Shown piece by piece: positions 5,258 through 64,000 of a stretch of DNA of 64,000 nucleotides; position 1 is the first letter of the stretch; each line of letters begins with the position of its first letter. Made by a program: the position numbers and the translations under genes. The notes under the pieces were generated by a model. The model was not told where the DNA came from. It saw only the letters and a program-made list of their open reading frames with translations, and did not search any database. The DNA comes from Halomonas sp. Bachu 37 (GTDB lineage Bacteria; Pseudomonadota; Gammaproteobacteria; Pseudomonadales; Halomonadaceae). The stretch is taken from NCBI RefSeq assembly GCF_039691755.1, contig NZ_CP137552.1, forward strand, positions 496,001-560,000. The letters are read 5' to 3'.

Positions 5258-7339
5258 TTACTGGCGTCCGGCCATCTGTTGTGCCTGGAGCAGCTGGGTG
5301 TAATCGAGCAGGATTTCCGCCGACTCGATCACCTGGGCGCGTTCCACGGGTTCATCCTCGGGTTGAGATTCACCATTGTCCTCTCCCGTATTGTTTGCCC
5401 GGGCATCGCTCCAATCTTCGAGAAGCTCCAGGCCAAGCGCCCGGCGGCGTTGGTTCTCCAGCGAGAGCTGCTCGGCCTCCTGAGCTTCCATCTCACGCTG
5501 ACGCAGGTCTCGATTGAGGCTGACGCTGGTATGTTGTTCACGCAACTGGCGAGCAAGTTCGGATTGGCGTTCCAGATAGAGGAAGTTGGGTTCTTGCTTT
5601 ATGCGCTCTTCATGGCGACGGATCAAGGACGGTAGCACGGCTTCCGGTTCGTCGTAACGGCGATACTGAACGTTCTGCACGGTGTCCCAGATGAGGGCGT
5701 TATCCAGGCTGCTTTCGCCGATGCGCTCGGGGTCGACGAGGCTGGGATAGGTGATATCCGGCTCCACGCCCCGATGCTGAGTGCTCTCGCCGGAAATACG
5801 GTAGAACTTGGCACGGGTCAGTTTGATCTGGCCATGACTCAGTTCGTTGAGTGTCTGTACGGTCCCCTTGCCGAAGGTGGGGGTCCCCAGTACCAGGCCA
5901 CGACCGTAGTCCTGAATCGCTCCGGCGAAGATCTCCGAGGCGGAAGCGGAAAGTCGGTTGACCAGCACGCCCAGCGGACCGTCGTACAGGGTGCCGCTTT
6001 CGCTATCGCCATAGAGGTTGATCCGGCCCTGGGCGTCGCGGACCTGTACCGTCGGCCCCCGGTCGATGAACAAGCCGATCAGAGAATTTGCTTCCTGCAG
6101 GGCACCGCCACCGTTATTGCGCAGGTCCAGCACGATGCCTTCCACGCCTTCTTCCTTGAGCCGCTCGACTTCACGCGCCACATCGCGAGTGGTACTGCGG
6201 TAGTCGTCTTCGCCGGCTTGCCAGGCATCGAAATCCACATAGAAAGTAGGAATGGTGACCACGCCGAGGCGGTGTGTTTTGCCATCGCGTTCGATTTCCA
6301 CGACTTCGCCCTGTGCCGCCTGGTCTTCCAGATCGACGGTATCACGGGTGATTTCGACGGTTTGCGAGCGGGTCATGTCCATGGCTTGCGCAGGGACCAC
6401 ATCGAGTCGAACCACCGAGCCTTTGGGGCCACGAATCAGATCCACCACGTTGTCCAGGCGCATGCCCACGACATTGACCATTTCGCCGTCTTCCTGCCCC
6501 ACTGCCACGATTCGATCGGCGGGCTCCAGCACGCCGGCGCGTTCTGCAGGGCCGCCGGGCACCAGGCTCGATACCTTGACGTATTCACCGTCTCCCTGAA
6601 GCAGGGCACCGATGCCTTCCAGCGAAAGACTCATCTGGATATCGAAGGACTCCCCCTGGCGAGGGGAGAGGTAGCCGGTATGAGGGTCGATAGTGCCGGA
6701 AACGGCCGCCATGAACAGCCCGAACACATCCTCGGCTTCGGTCTGACGAACCTGAGATAGCTGGCCCTCATAGCGCTGACGCAGGTTTTTCTCGATTTCC
6801 TCTTCGTCCTGACCGGAAAGTGACAGGGTCAGGGCGGCATTCTTCAGCCGCTTGAACCATAACTCGTCCAGCTCGCTTTCCCGCGTAGCCCAGGGGAACT
6901 CCTCTCGATCGAGCTCCAGGCGCATGTTGCTGTCGTACTCGAAGTCCAGCCCTTCGTCCAGCTTGGCCAGCAACCACTCGAGGCGGGCTTCCGTTCGGTC
7001 GTTCAGGCGTTGGTAGAGGGCGAAGACCCGGTCGAGGTTGCCTTCGAAAATGACGTGCTCGAGTTGAGTTTCCATGTCCTGGAATTCCTCGATATCACGC
7101 CGCAGAAAATAAGCGCGCTGGCCGTCCAGGATATCCAGATAACGAGCGAAGGCCTCTCGCGACCATTGCTCGTCGAACTCGACATCCGCATAGTGGCCAT
7201 AGCGCAATGAATCGGCTATTTCGGTGGTCACCTGGCGTTGGGCGTCGGTCGGCTCCAGCTGGGCGAATGCCAGCGGGCTGGCGATCGTCAGCGCCAAGGT
7301 AAACGCAACCGAGCGCGAAAGCGTTGCAAACAGGCTCAT
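5258..7339 (-). CDS. prc: Periplasmic tail-specific protease Prc (Tsp)
   Basis: 693 residues. The signal peptide ends at AFA-QLE (about residue 26). An N-terminal helical region, a PDZ domain (about 240-330, with LVPGGPAERAGV) and an S41 peptidase domain follow. The catalytic Ser is in RLSASASEIFAG and the catalytic Lys in TPTFGKGTVQ, as in E. coli Prc. The C-terminal DUF3340-type region is Glu- and Gln-rich. Prc degrades proteins with non-polar C-termini and trims penicillin-binding protein 3 in E. coli. It stands alone between the tRNA-Asn cluster and the divergent M18 peptidase. The RBS is GGAGAG before the ATG at 7339. Confidence 0.95.
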   Translation of the reverse strand: MSLFATLSRSVAFTLALTIASPLAFAQLEPTDAQRQVTTEIADSLRYGHYADVEFDEQWSREAFARYLDILDGQRAYFLRRDIEEFQDMETQLEHVIFEGNLDRVFALYQRLNDRTEARLEWLLAKLDEGLDFEYDSNMRLELDREEFPWATRESELDELWFKRLKNAALTLSLSGQDEEEIEKNLRQRYEGQLSQVRQTEAEDVFGLFMAAVSGTIDPHTGYLSPRQGESFDIQMSLSLEGIGALLQGDGEYVKVSSLVPGGPAERAGVLEPADRIVAVGQEDGEMVNVVGMRLDNVVDLIRGPKGSVVRLDVVPAQAMDMTRSQTVEITRDTVDLEDQAAQGEVVEIERDGKTHRLGVVTIPTFYVDFDAWQAGEDDYRSTTRDVAREVERLKEEGVEGIVLDLRNNGGGALQEANSLIGLFIDRGPTVQVRDAQGRINLYGDSESGTLYDGPLGVLVNRLSASASEIFAGAIQDYGRGLVLGTPTFGKGTVQTLNELSHGQIKLTRAKFYRISGESTQHRGVEPDITYPSLVDPERIGESSLDNALIWDTVQNVQYRRYDEPEAVLPSLIRRHEERIKQEPNFLYLERQSELARQLREQHTSVSLNRDLRQREMEAQEAEQLSLENQRRRALGLELLEDWSDARANNTGEDNGESQPEDEPVERAQVIESAEILLDYTQLLQAQQMAGRQ

Positions 7340-61798: not shown

Positions 61799-61878
61799 TG
61801 ACCCTCTCCCCGAATTCTGGACAGGCATAACAAGAGATTCCGGCACACACTAAGAAAACCCTCATAGGAGGATGTGCC

Positions 61879-62145
61879 GTGAAAAAATCCCGTTTCACTG
61901 AGGAGCAGATCGCCTTCGCCCTCAAGCAGGCGGAGCTGGGGACGCCGGTCGCGGAGGTGTGTCGCAAGCTGGGTATCAGTGAGCCCACGTTCTACGCCTG
62001 GCGCAAGAAATACGGGGGCCTCGGGCCCTCGGAGCTGCGTCGCTTGAAGCAGCTGGAGGAGGAGAATCGCAAGCTCAAGCAACTCGTGGCCGACCTTTCC
62101 CTGGACAAGGCGATGTTGCAGGATGTCCTCGGAAAAAAGCGTTGA
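61879..62145 (+). CDS. IS3-family transposase OrfA
   Basis: 88 residues. The N-terminal HTH ([20 protein letters not shown], then [20 protein letters not shown]) is typical of IS407-type OrfA. A leucine-zipper-like coil follows ([21 protein letters not shown]). A GGAGG ribosome site precedes the ATG. The frame ends in a slippery heptamer, so most product is OrfA alone and some continues as OrfAB. Confidence 0.93.
62133..62139 (+). other. Programmed -1 frameshift site of the insertion sequence
   Basis: AAAAAAG is positioned in the orfA frame as A-AAA-AAG, the classic slippery heptamer. orfB is in the -1 frame relative to orfA and begins at the orfA stop, so slippage would make the OrfAB transposase. 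Confidence 0.8.
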
Positions 62146-63017
62146 GCGCGTCGCGCAAGCGACAGCTGGCCCAGGACTTGGTTGATCAGTTCGGCGCCAG
62201 TACACGGCAGGCCTGTGGCGTCCTCGCCCTGGCGCGCTCGGTGTTTTACTACCGCAGTCAGGCGCAGGACCAGCGCCCGCTGTTGCAGCGGATCCACGAG
62301 ATCACCGCCACCCGGGTACGCTACGGCTACCGGCGTGTCCATGAGTTGCTCAAGCGCGAGGGCTGGGAAGTCAACCATAAACGCGTTTATCGGTTATACC
62401 GCGAGGCTGGGCTTAGCCTGCGTCTCAAGCGCCCCAAGCGCCATCGGATGGCTGCCACCCGGCGCGAACGTGTTTTGGCCACGGGGCTGGATCAGGTCTG
62501 GAGCATGGATTTTGTCAGCGATGCGCTGTTCAACGGCAAGCGTCTGCGGGCCCTGATGCTGGTCGACGAGTTCAGCCGCGAATGTCTCGCCATCCACGTT
62601 GACAGTTCGATCGTCGCGGCGAACGTGGCCGAGGTCATGACCCGCTTGAGCGAAAGGGGACGCCATCCCTCACAGGTACGGGTCGACAACGGCCCTGAAT
62701 TCGTCTCACGCGTGTTGGATCGTTGGGCTTACGAGCAGGGCGTCACATTGGACTTCAGCCGCCCAGGCAAGCCGACGGACAATGCTTTCGTTGAGTCCTT
62801 CAATGGTAAGTTCCGGGCAGAATGCCTGAACATCCATTGGTTCCTGTCACTGGACGATGCGCGGCAGAAGATCGAAGCCTGGCGACAGGACTACAATCAG
62901 CTCAGACCCCATTCTTCATTAGGCTGGCTAACGCCTGAAGAATTCGCTGCAAGTCGATGTTCGACAGCAATTTGCAGCGAAACAACGGCCGGAACTTCTA
63001 ACAATGACCGGTCCTGA
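62142..63017 (+). CDS. IS3-family transposase OrfB (DDE integrase domain)
   Basis: 291 residues counted from a TTG that overlaps the orfA stop; in practice it is read through the frameshift. The N-terminal HTH_21 segment ([20 protein letters not shown]) leads to the rve domain. Catalytic residues lie in [10 protein letters not shown] (first Asp), [11 protein letters not shown] (second Asp) and [17 protein letters not shown] (Glu). No internal stops or frameshifts are seen, so it may be active. Confidence 0.93.
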
Positions 63018-63050
63018 TATGGGGTGAGGGTCAAATTCGTCATGATCAGA

Positions 63051-63155
63051 GCTTAATGCCTGGTCCGAATTTCGGGGACCACCTCATTTTGGTGTCACCT
63101 TTTTTTGTTCCAAAAAGGCGCCACAAAAATTTGCTCGGTGAGCCGGGCGTTAGGG
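63051..63155 (+). repeat. Possible degenerate attC site left of the toxin-antitoxin cassette
   Basis: The right end is a good core site, GTTAGGG at 63149-63155. Inside lies a 19-bp imperfect inverted repeat (63086-63104 with 63112-63130, 16 of 19 positions pairing) across a 7-base loop, and outer GCCTGG/GCCGGGC partly pair. The expected left box RYYYAAC appears only as GCTTAAT at 63051, so the left edge is uncertain. Confidence 0.4.
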
Positions 63156-63422
63156 CTGGTCGTAGTGTCCTCCAATGGCGAAAACGTAAATGGATTTGTC
63201 GTCGAATCGGTATATGAGTCTGTCTTTCTGTGAGATGCGCCGTGACCACAAGCCTGATAAGTTGTGTTTAAGCGGTTCAGGTTTGCCGATGCCGATTGAT
63301 GGGTCGTCAGAGCGGAGCATTTCTTTCAGCAATTTGCAGAGAGCTTTATGCAACTTCTTGTCTTTCTCTCGCATCTGTTCATAGGCTTCCCAAGTGCTAC
63401 CCTCAAATACCAGTGATCTCAT
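63150..63422 (-). CDS. yoeB: YoeB-family mRNA endonuclease toxin
   Basis: 90 residues. The core GKPEPLKHNLSGLWSRRI (about 46-63) and the C-terminal GGHYDQP closely follow E. coli YoeB; catalytic Glu, Arg and His are present (KPEPL, KDRLIYRF, GHYD). It cleaves mRNA on the ribosome when its antitoxin is lost. The start overlaps the antitoxin end by 20 bases. The stop codon is made of the first three bases of the cassette. Confidence 0.92.
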   Translation of the reverse strand: MRSLVFEGSTWEAYEQMREKDKKLHKALCKLLKEMLRSDDPSIGIGKPEPLKHNLSGLWSRRISQKDRLIYRFDDKSIYVFAIGGHYDQP

Positions 63423-63675
63423 TCATCTGCTCATCATTAGGTGTGTATCCTTGGCCACGGCTGTGAGTGTCGAGGGAGGCCGCAATTTGCTGCAGCAGGT
63501 CTCTACTCTGAAGAACATGCAGGGTTTCTTGTTCCCTTTCCCAGTCTTCAGCGCTCATAATCACGAAAGCCTCTCCGGCGCGGCGTGTCACTTTGAGAGG
63601 CTCATGTCTATTAATCACCTGTTCTACAAGGCTTTTTAGGTTGTCTCTGAATTTGTTTACACTGATGATATCCAT
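63403..63675 (-). CDS. yefM: YefM/Phd-family antitoxin
   Basis: 90 residues from the ATG at 63675 (MDIISVNKFRDNLKSLVEQVINR). The N-terminal Phd/YefM fold (about 1-55, with HEPLKVTRRAGEAFVIMSAEDW) binds DNA, and the C-terminal helix (about 60-90) should mask YoeB. A perfect palindrome lies 15 bp upstream. The gene precedes and overlaps yoeB, giving the usual antitoxin-first order. Confidence 0.92.
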   Translation of the reverse strand: MDIISVNKFRDNLKSLVEQVINRHEPLKVTRRAGEAFVIMSAEDWEREQETLHVLQSRDLLQQIAASLDTHSRGQGYTPNDEQMNEITGI

Positions 63676-63689
63676 AATTCCACCATTAC

Positions 63690-63713
63690 GTACGGAAACT
63701 CCGTACAACTATA
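63690..63713 (-). promoter_or_regulatory. Operator and -10 box of the yefM-yoeB operon
   Basis: GTACGGA-AAC-TCCGTAC (63690-63706) is a perfect 7-bp inverted repeat with a 3-base centre, next to TATAGT (63713-63708, minus strand) as the -10 box. Antitoxin/toxin complexes of this family repress their own promoter through such palindromes. No convincing -35 box is seen. Confidence 0.7.
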
Positions 63714-63720
63714 TCGCAAT

Positions 63721-63807
63721 AGCCCTAACAAGGCCAGTCACGGCGACGGTTACTACATTGCGGATTCGCCTCCATTCCGTAACCGCGCGTGCTGAGCGGC
63801 GTTAGCT
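63721..63807 (+). repeat. Integron attC recombination site
   Basis: The left box AGCCCTAAC (63721-63729) and right box GTTAGCT (63801-63807) flank an imperfect hairpin. The arm at 63735-63753 pairs with 63779-63794 over all 16 bases of the right arm, leaving three unpaired bases in the left arm (T63738, one G at 63742-63743, A63746). Extrahelical bases on one arm are the hallmark that sets strand choice by the integron integrase. The length of about 87 bp is within the usual range. Confidence 0.75.
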
Positions 63808-63825
63808 GTGATTGCCTCTCCCGCG

Positions 63826-63847
63826 CAGTGATACTATAGTGTCACTG
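63826..63847 (+). promoter_or_regulatory. Palindromic operator before the second antitoxin gene
   Basis: A 22-bp palindrome, CAGTGATACTA / TAGTGTCACTG, has one mismatched pair and covers TACTAT and TATAGT -10-like boxes. It lies 25 bp before the antitoxin start and should be its autoregulatory site. Confidence 0.6.
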
Positions 63848-63871
63848 TAAATTTGTATCAGGGGGAGCCCC

Positions 63872-64000
63872 ATGAAAGTAGAGCTTGTTACAAACCTTAA
63901 GCGTCAAGCCACAAAAATTCTGGCAGACCTGCATCTGTCCAAAGAGCCGGTACTGATCACTGAACATGGCCAGCCATCCGCTTATCTTGTTGATGTGCAG
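63872..64000 (+). CDS. Phd/YefM-family antitoxin, N-terminal part (cut by window edge)
   Basis: 43 residues are visible, starting MKVELVTNLKRQATKILADL and continuing KEPVLITEHGQPSAYLVDV, which is the Phd/YefM DNA-binding fold. A GGGGGA ribosome site lies 6 bp upstream. A RelE- or ParE-type toxin gene is expected just downstream, outside the window. It is the first gene of the next cassette, on the strand normal for cassette genes. Confidence 0.85.
   Translation, partial: MKVELVTNLKRQATKILADLHLSKEPVLITEHGQPSAYLVDVQ

Follow-up and report, generated by a model that had tools for sequence, protein, structure and literature searches.

The right end of the 64,000-nucleotide stretch of DNA analysed here (the window) carries a toxin-antitoxin pair between two sites that resemble integron cores. 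Is this pair a gene cassette, and, if so, what kind of array does it sit in? The reading we favour, with a probability of about 0.92 and on the strength of sequence comparison, is that 63150-63801 is a mobile integron cassette stranded in a small integrase-less array (CALIN). The cassette is of a known kind, and the added detail is a toxin gene that ends exactly at the recombinase cut.

Cassette limits and the attC site

Cassette 1 (63150..63801, plus strand) is 652 bp long and lies between two G/TT cores, the slash marking the cut. Its GC content is 0.488, compared with 0.606 for the window. The core sites that the first-pass annotation had placed at 63149 and 63801 are both present: the left core G/TTAGGG (63149..63155, plus strand) is GTTAGGGCT beginning at 63149, and the right core, the R' of attC1 (63801..63807, plus strand), is GTTAGCTG beginning at 63801. 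We take the left recombination point to lie between 63149 and 63150. The complementarity claimed for the cassette ends is exact (8/8) between cassette bases 1-8 (TTAGGGCT) and the attC start AGCCCTAA. By itself this is weak evidence and chance is not negligible, as an exact eight-base complement plus C occurs 500-700 bases downstream of 4 of the window's 1477 GTT sites (both strands counted), with about one expected by simple arithmetic. That such complements are not rare speaks for a different reading, in which the pair is an ordinary chromosomal toxin-antitoxin module, the attC-like hairpin and cores being coincidental. The first eight bases of cassette 2, to the right, are complementary to its R'' at 7/8 positions, and in cassette 3 the rule is unclear (1/8 in the register of cassette 1; 5/8 by eye in the adjacent register).

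The attC of cassette 1 (attC1; 63723..63807, plus strand; R'' at 63723-63729, R' core at 63801-63807) was delimited with a covariance model and by folding. The model was built from 35 attC sites of other genomes (35 of the 40 candidates from outside this genome were used). Searched against the window and the next 35 kb, it matches attC1 at 43.5 bits (E 1.4e-8), a score that is somewhat favoured by the training set, in which four of the 35 sites are attCs of homologous YoeB cassettes. The next-best place in the 64-kb window reaches only 12.8 bits (E 0.88). The first-pass annotation had staked its reading on a model match here and on more attC-like sites within several kb to the right, and both were found: attC2 and attC3 lie 0.7 kb and 2.2 kb away, and attC2 belongs to a cassette unrelated to the YoeB training cassettes. 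The covariance-model match and the further attC sites to the right are the decisive evidence for a cassette, and they argue against coincidence in an ordinary module.

The site had also been called a textbook attC. It is a real attC, but its R'' (CCCTAAC) and R' (GTTAGCT) each deviate from the R-box consensus (RYYYAAC and GTTRRRY), and the two are only partly complementary when integrated. The minimum-energy fold of the bottom strand has the hairpin as described, with 16 consecutive paired bases in one arm and three single extrahelical bases in the other; its folding energy is unexceptional (z -1.5; 15 of 200 shuffles are equally stable). Cassette 1 has the parts that mark a gene cassette, namely an attC with R'' and R' and a central single-strand hairpin, and G/TT cores. 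A strict R-box regular expression kept 0 candidates, the R boxes here being deviant; it was relaxed and then replaced by the covariance model. Rfam at gathering thresholds finds five tRNAs in the window and nothing else.

The left core at 63149 is the end of an attC without its 5' part, and not an attI. What is left of this attC (63087..63155, plus strand) is the 3' part of the site of a lost preceding cassette, with R'' and L'' missing. Its local alignment with the 94-bp attC of a same-genus genome (G020, L031:12656-12749) scores 44.5, and 500 shuffles score at most 13. An insertion sequence (61799..63086, plus strand) with tnpA (61879-62145) and tnpB (62142-63017) ends where this remnant begins. 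It encodes HTH_Tnp_1 and rve domains, and we take it to belong to the IS3 family from this domain pair and the element ends, which are imperfect terminal inverted repeats (TGACCCTCTCCCCGAATTCTGGAC and TGAGGTGGTCCCCGAAATTCGGAC). Two partial copies of the insertion sequence at other places in the genome stop at the base equivalent to 63086, which fixes its end. No target duplication was seen around it, so the element would have either deleted its neighbour or recombined.

The array, the integrase search and the insertion site

Beyond the window we give positions in the overlapping locus L009 (window position = L009 position + 59000). Cassette 2 begins in the window (63802..64000, plus strand) with a Phd-type antitoxin (PF02604; L009 4872-5129) that runs from 63872 on and continues past the window. 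A ParE-type toxin (PF05016; L009 5117-5419) follows beyond the window, and the Phd-ParE pair is followed by attC2 (L009 5414-5491, window-equivalent 64414-64491; 37 bits, E 6e-7). Cassette 3 holds a rhodanese-type sulfurtransferase that shares 93% identity with a gene from a relative's integron region (G052), and attC3 (L009 6924-7007; 27.9 bits, E 1.3e-4) has the decayed core GTGAAAC. Over the whole of the searched sequence (window plus 35 kb) the model gave three more matches, none better than E 0.28. Past attC3 there are a ParD-like/ParE-like pair, a class A beta-lactamase-like gene and a ZIP-type transporter, and then serS.

Upstream of the cassette 2 antitoxin, at 63825-63848, is the palindrome GCAGTGATACTATAGTGTCACTGT, which is terminator-like in our scan and perhaps an operator. 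An inverted-end element, GGTCTGTTGACGTTTCAT...ATGAAACGTCAACAGACC, lies within cassette 3 (L009 about 5605-5875) and is MITE-like by reading. The beta-lactamase-like gene (L009 7572-8561, window-equivalent 66572-67561) scores over the general class A cut-off; it is nearest the CARB/RTG models but under their name cut-offs. No convincing attC was found beside it (best 13.2 bits, E 0.71).

For the right edge of the window the first-pass annotation had proposed a sedentary chromosomal integron or a cluster of attC sites without integrase, and it is the second proposal that stands. No integron integrase over the TIGR02249 cut-off was found in the genome itself, a three-contig assembly (best 80 bits versus 265, C-terminal part only; there are ten tyrosine-recombinase matches), and tblastn found no intI remnant in the window and the next 35 kb. 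Among the 97 genomes searched, 34 have an integron integrase over this cut-off. Full integron integrases with arrays do occur in same-genus species, which would suit a sedentary chromosomal integron with its integrase further away; the integrase lies 0.29-1.63 Mb from serS in G001, G008, G012, G020, G034 and G052, where both are on one contig. Against the genome-wide result and these distances we consider such an integron very improbable here, unless its intI is in sequence that the assembly lacks. The locus has three attC model matches (E <=1.3e-4) within 2.3 kb and no integron integrase nearby, as a CALIN has; of the intI and attI of a sedentary chromosomal integron, no integrase over the cut-off and no significant match to the genus attI-like repeat were found. 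One tyrosine recombinase (L007/L011, frame L011 5353-6387) was considered as IntI from a split domain match and rejected, the genome search giving none over the cut-off.

From a DUF4202 gene to serS the distance is 7.1 kb here and 0.16 to 14 kb in the 20 relatives fetched. In the best-matching relatives the left flank query stays similar for about 120 bases (about 59 in others), and similarity restarts about 95 bases before the serS query frame, so roughly 6.9 kb appear to be inserted here. Used as queries against these 20 relatives, 11 genes of the insertion gave only a weak YefM-like match (L080), and no attC at E <=0.1 was found between DUF4202 and serS in these 20 (best 15.2 bits, E 0.2). 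The gap measures 9-14 kb in four of the 20 (L076-L079), and the site may be a general insertion hotspot.

How the array came to this site is a separate matter. It may have been built in place, or a fragment may have been brought by a larger insertion or an IS-mediated rearrangement; we give the second route an even chance, and it is compatible with a CALIN. The IS3-family element that abuts the truncated attC without a target duplication points to this route, as do the beta-lactamase-like and ZIP-like genes, which are part of the insertion and have no clear attC sites. Against it, no second copy of this IS was found at the right edge, and the original left part is lost, which makes the route unreadable.

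At least three further isolated attC-like places were found in this genome, where 150 of 1264 candidates from a first look were scored: C1:255380 (77 bits), beside a Phd-type/ParE-YoeB-type pair, C1:1813669 (40 bits) and C1:1410412 (27 bits). In the first (L187 2965-3680; G000:C1 about 255.4-256.1 kb) the 77-bit attC is followed by the pair and then by what looks like the beginning of another attC; a DDE transposase gene lies to the left. The genome thus has several integrase-less integron remnants. Cassette 1 would have arrived from an integron elsewhere by integrase-mediated recombination, and without an integrase it would stay put unless one acts in trans.

The toxin-antitoxin pair and its relatives

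Cassette 1 encodes, on the minus strand, a YoeB-type toxin of 90 amino acids (63150..63422) and a YefM/Phd-type antitoxin (63403..63675). The pair named in the first-pass annotation is real. The toxin matches YoeB (PF06769, E 8.4e-24) and E. coli YoeB (PDB 2a6q, E 3.9e-18) and is over the Txe/YoeB family cut-off (TIGR02116, 73.3 bits versus 51.8); the Phd/YefM domain (PF02604, E 3e-18) is directly upstream of it, the two frames overlapping by 20 bases. The antitoxin scores below the narrow equivalog NF008499 (41.5 bits versus a cut-off of 121). Its likely ATG start at 63675 was picked by reading, and the longest frame is 63403-63708. The dN/dS of the window toxin against seven others is 0.035-0.060 (seven of ten chosen pairs; the other three were saturated and gave no ratio). 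The Txe/YoeB family presumably acts by ribosome-dependent mRNA cleavage, and from the family and the conserved C-terminal His-Tyr we infer that the toxin is an mRNA interferase that cleaves in this way.

An inverted repeat upstream of the antitoxin, GTACGGA-AAC-TCCGTAC (63690..63706), is probably the YefM-YoeB operator. By a loose pattern, a GTAC-flanked palindrome is at the matching place in 78 of 80 homologous loci (best 80 of 556). We predict that the pair transcribes itself, independent of any cassette promoter; a sigma-70 consensus scan found no promoter-like site for it. A cell that lost the cassette would be penalised by the stable toxin thus set free, and this may have helped the remnant to persist.

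The toxin gene is antisense to attC1, and the cassette begins with the bases of the gene's last codons, CAG CCC TAA. Cassette bases 1-3 form the stop TAA, and the end of the frame coincides with the recombination point. The bottom strand of an attC is the strand cut by the integrase. The toxin stop is the TAA of the core CCCTAA/C, and the coding strand of the toxin is the attC bottom strand. With its stop inside the core, the gene should come through each excision and insertion intact, regardless of what lies next to it. In the excised circle, the CAG CCC TAA bases would pair with R'' and end at the integrase cut.

Among loci that have their own attC, 27 of 30 show this flush stop (TAA/C), as do 19 of the 50 without (best 80 of 556 named loci); among those 50, TAG (12) and TGA (13) are common as the toxin stop. 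A YoeB pair in the array of G001, 42% identical, is antisense too. Its stop falls short of the cassette boundary by a few bases, and the flush end may therefore be confined to this YoeB subfamily.

YoeB matches at E <=1e-10 were found in at least 126 of 295 genomes, and among the matches listed the relatives form two identity groups, 72-98% and <=48%. The best 80 of 556 loci, some of which share one genome, are mostly from marine and halophilic gammaproteobacteria (Vreelandella/Halomonas, Marinobacter, Marinobacterium, Nitrincola and others). An attC match is directly upstream of the antitoxin in 30 of these 80 (L116 and L129 have local matches only, and some loci may be the same records as model training sites), one ends at the toxin-side boundary in 21, and all 115 attC matches listed are on the strand opposite the toxin. 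The 50 loci with no attC match directly upstream of the antitoxin speak for an ordinary chromosomal module. What such a module would not explain is that homologous cassettes keep their boundaries while the neighbours differ across many genomes, and that the cassette limits coincide with sequence breakpoints in homologues.

At one junction a homologous cassette is present in one relative and missing from others. In G003 (L053) this cassette, with a 68-bit attC, is between an attI-like repeat of about 128 bp and another cassette. The end of such a repeat joins this second cassette directly at GTTA in G097 and G058, where the YoeB-type cassette is absent and 155 and 156 aligned bases run across the junction at 83% identity; in G100 an attC (27.4 bits) precedes the second cassette instead of the repeat. 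In relatives, therefore, the presence and absence of the unit differ with single-base precision at the cores. This evidence for precise insertion comes from homologous cassettes in relatives and not from the window locus; it speaks against an ordinary module with chance hairpin and cores, a reading to which we give only a few chances in a hundred at most. Uninterrupted junctions were sought for two single YoeB cassettes (L046 and L053) in 82 genus genomes each, and for L046 none was found in the 82, left-flank matches stopping by base 146 of the 260-base join. A search that took in G003 and G058, and left aside G097 and G100, found no integron integrase over the cut-off in either.

The repeat of about 128 bp ends in GTTA, and in G024 and G020 it is placed as an attI would be, with intI on one side and the array on the other. 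Copies were seen in the same-genus loci L053, L202-L211, L031, L032, L218 and L219. The ten copies in L202-L211 have no intI nearby, save a weak match in L209; an attC follows within 1.4 kb of the repeat in six of the ten, and attCs are just upstream in three. The repeat may be a dispersed attI-like site that heads integrase-less arrays. Alternatively it could be a hairpin element, because its ends share the motif GCGCATGCGC. It has no significant match in the window, L009, L010 or L187-L189, and none in the whole genome when searched as part of a joined query. A second repeat of about 85 bp, mostly ending in ACAGCCTCGTTA, precedes cassettes in several same-genus genomes (L046, L031, L212-L217), with up to seven matches per genome.

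A further proposal goes beyond the stranded cassette: the toxin end would be part of the recombination site, so that both evolve as one, and the same-genus integrase-less arrays headed by dispersed attI-like repeats would stay live acceptors for an integrase acting in trans. We offer this tentatively and think it rather less probable than its opposite.

Comparison with known systems

The toxin aligns with E. coli YoeB of the YoeB-YefM complex (2a6q) over residues 4-87, with the C-terminal His-Tyr conserved. At its C-terminus the cassette edge encodes three extra residues (Asp-Gln-Pro) that E. coli YoeB lacks.

Toxin-antitoxin cassettes of the Vibrio cholerae superintegron have their own promoter and are thought to stabilise the array, according to the accessible parts of PMC11023631 and PMC11551772, and as here the pair is inside the cassette. 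An antisense toxin-antitoxin cassette, parDE3, is also known there (PMC11014356, in part). The locus described here differs in having no integrase and, as far as the available text of these sources goes, in having a toxin stop that coincides with the recombination point.

A close likeness is the CALIN of Halorhodospira halochloris, an attC array without intI in a halophile, with several type II toxin-antitoxin cassettes and an adjoining insertion sequence (PMC7923331, accessible part). The same text gives BrnT/A in 3/5 of the pairs and ten cassettes, whereas here the pairs are YefM-YoeB and Phd-ParE, there are three recognisable attC sites, and we noticed no group II intron in passing.

For the flush stop itself, a parallel is ORF-11 of attI1, where the inserted cassette core supplies the stop codon (PMC8876359, in the portion available), likewise from a GTTRRRY core. 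ORF-11 is, in that portion, a short leader peptide on the cassette-promoter strand with its stop at core positions 3-5, whereas the toxin is on the bottom strand with its stop at cassette bases 1-3. No report of a flush toxin stop or of dispersed solitary attI sites was found in a literature search that most subscription journals lay outside.

Toxin-antitoxin cassettes with their own promoters, an antisense toxin-antitoxin cassette and a CALIN rich in such pairs in a halophile were already known (PMC11023631, PMC11014356 and PMC7923331, each in its accessible part). To these the locus adds a clearly bounded toxin-antitoxin cassette that is widespread among marine and halophilic gammaproteobacteria. 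The comparison suggests that one gene family spans stages between a mobile cassette and a fixed chromosomal module, and the flush stop gives a simple example of bases shared between a recombination site and a protein C-terminus.
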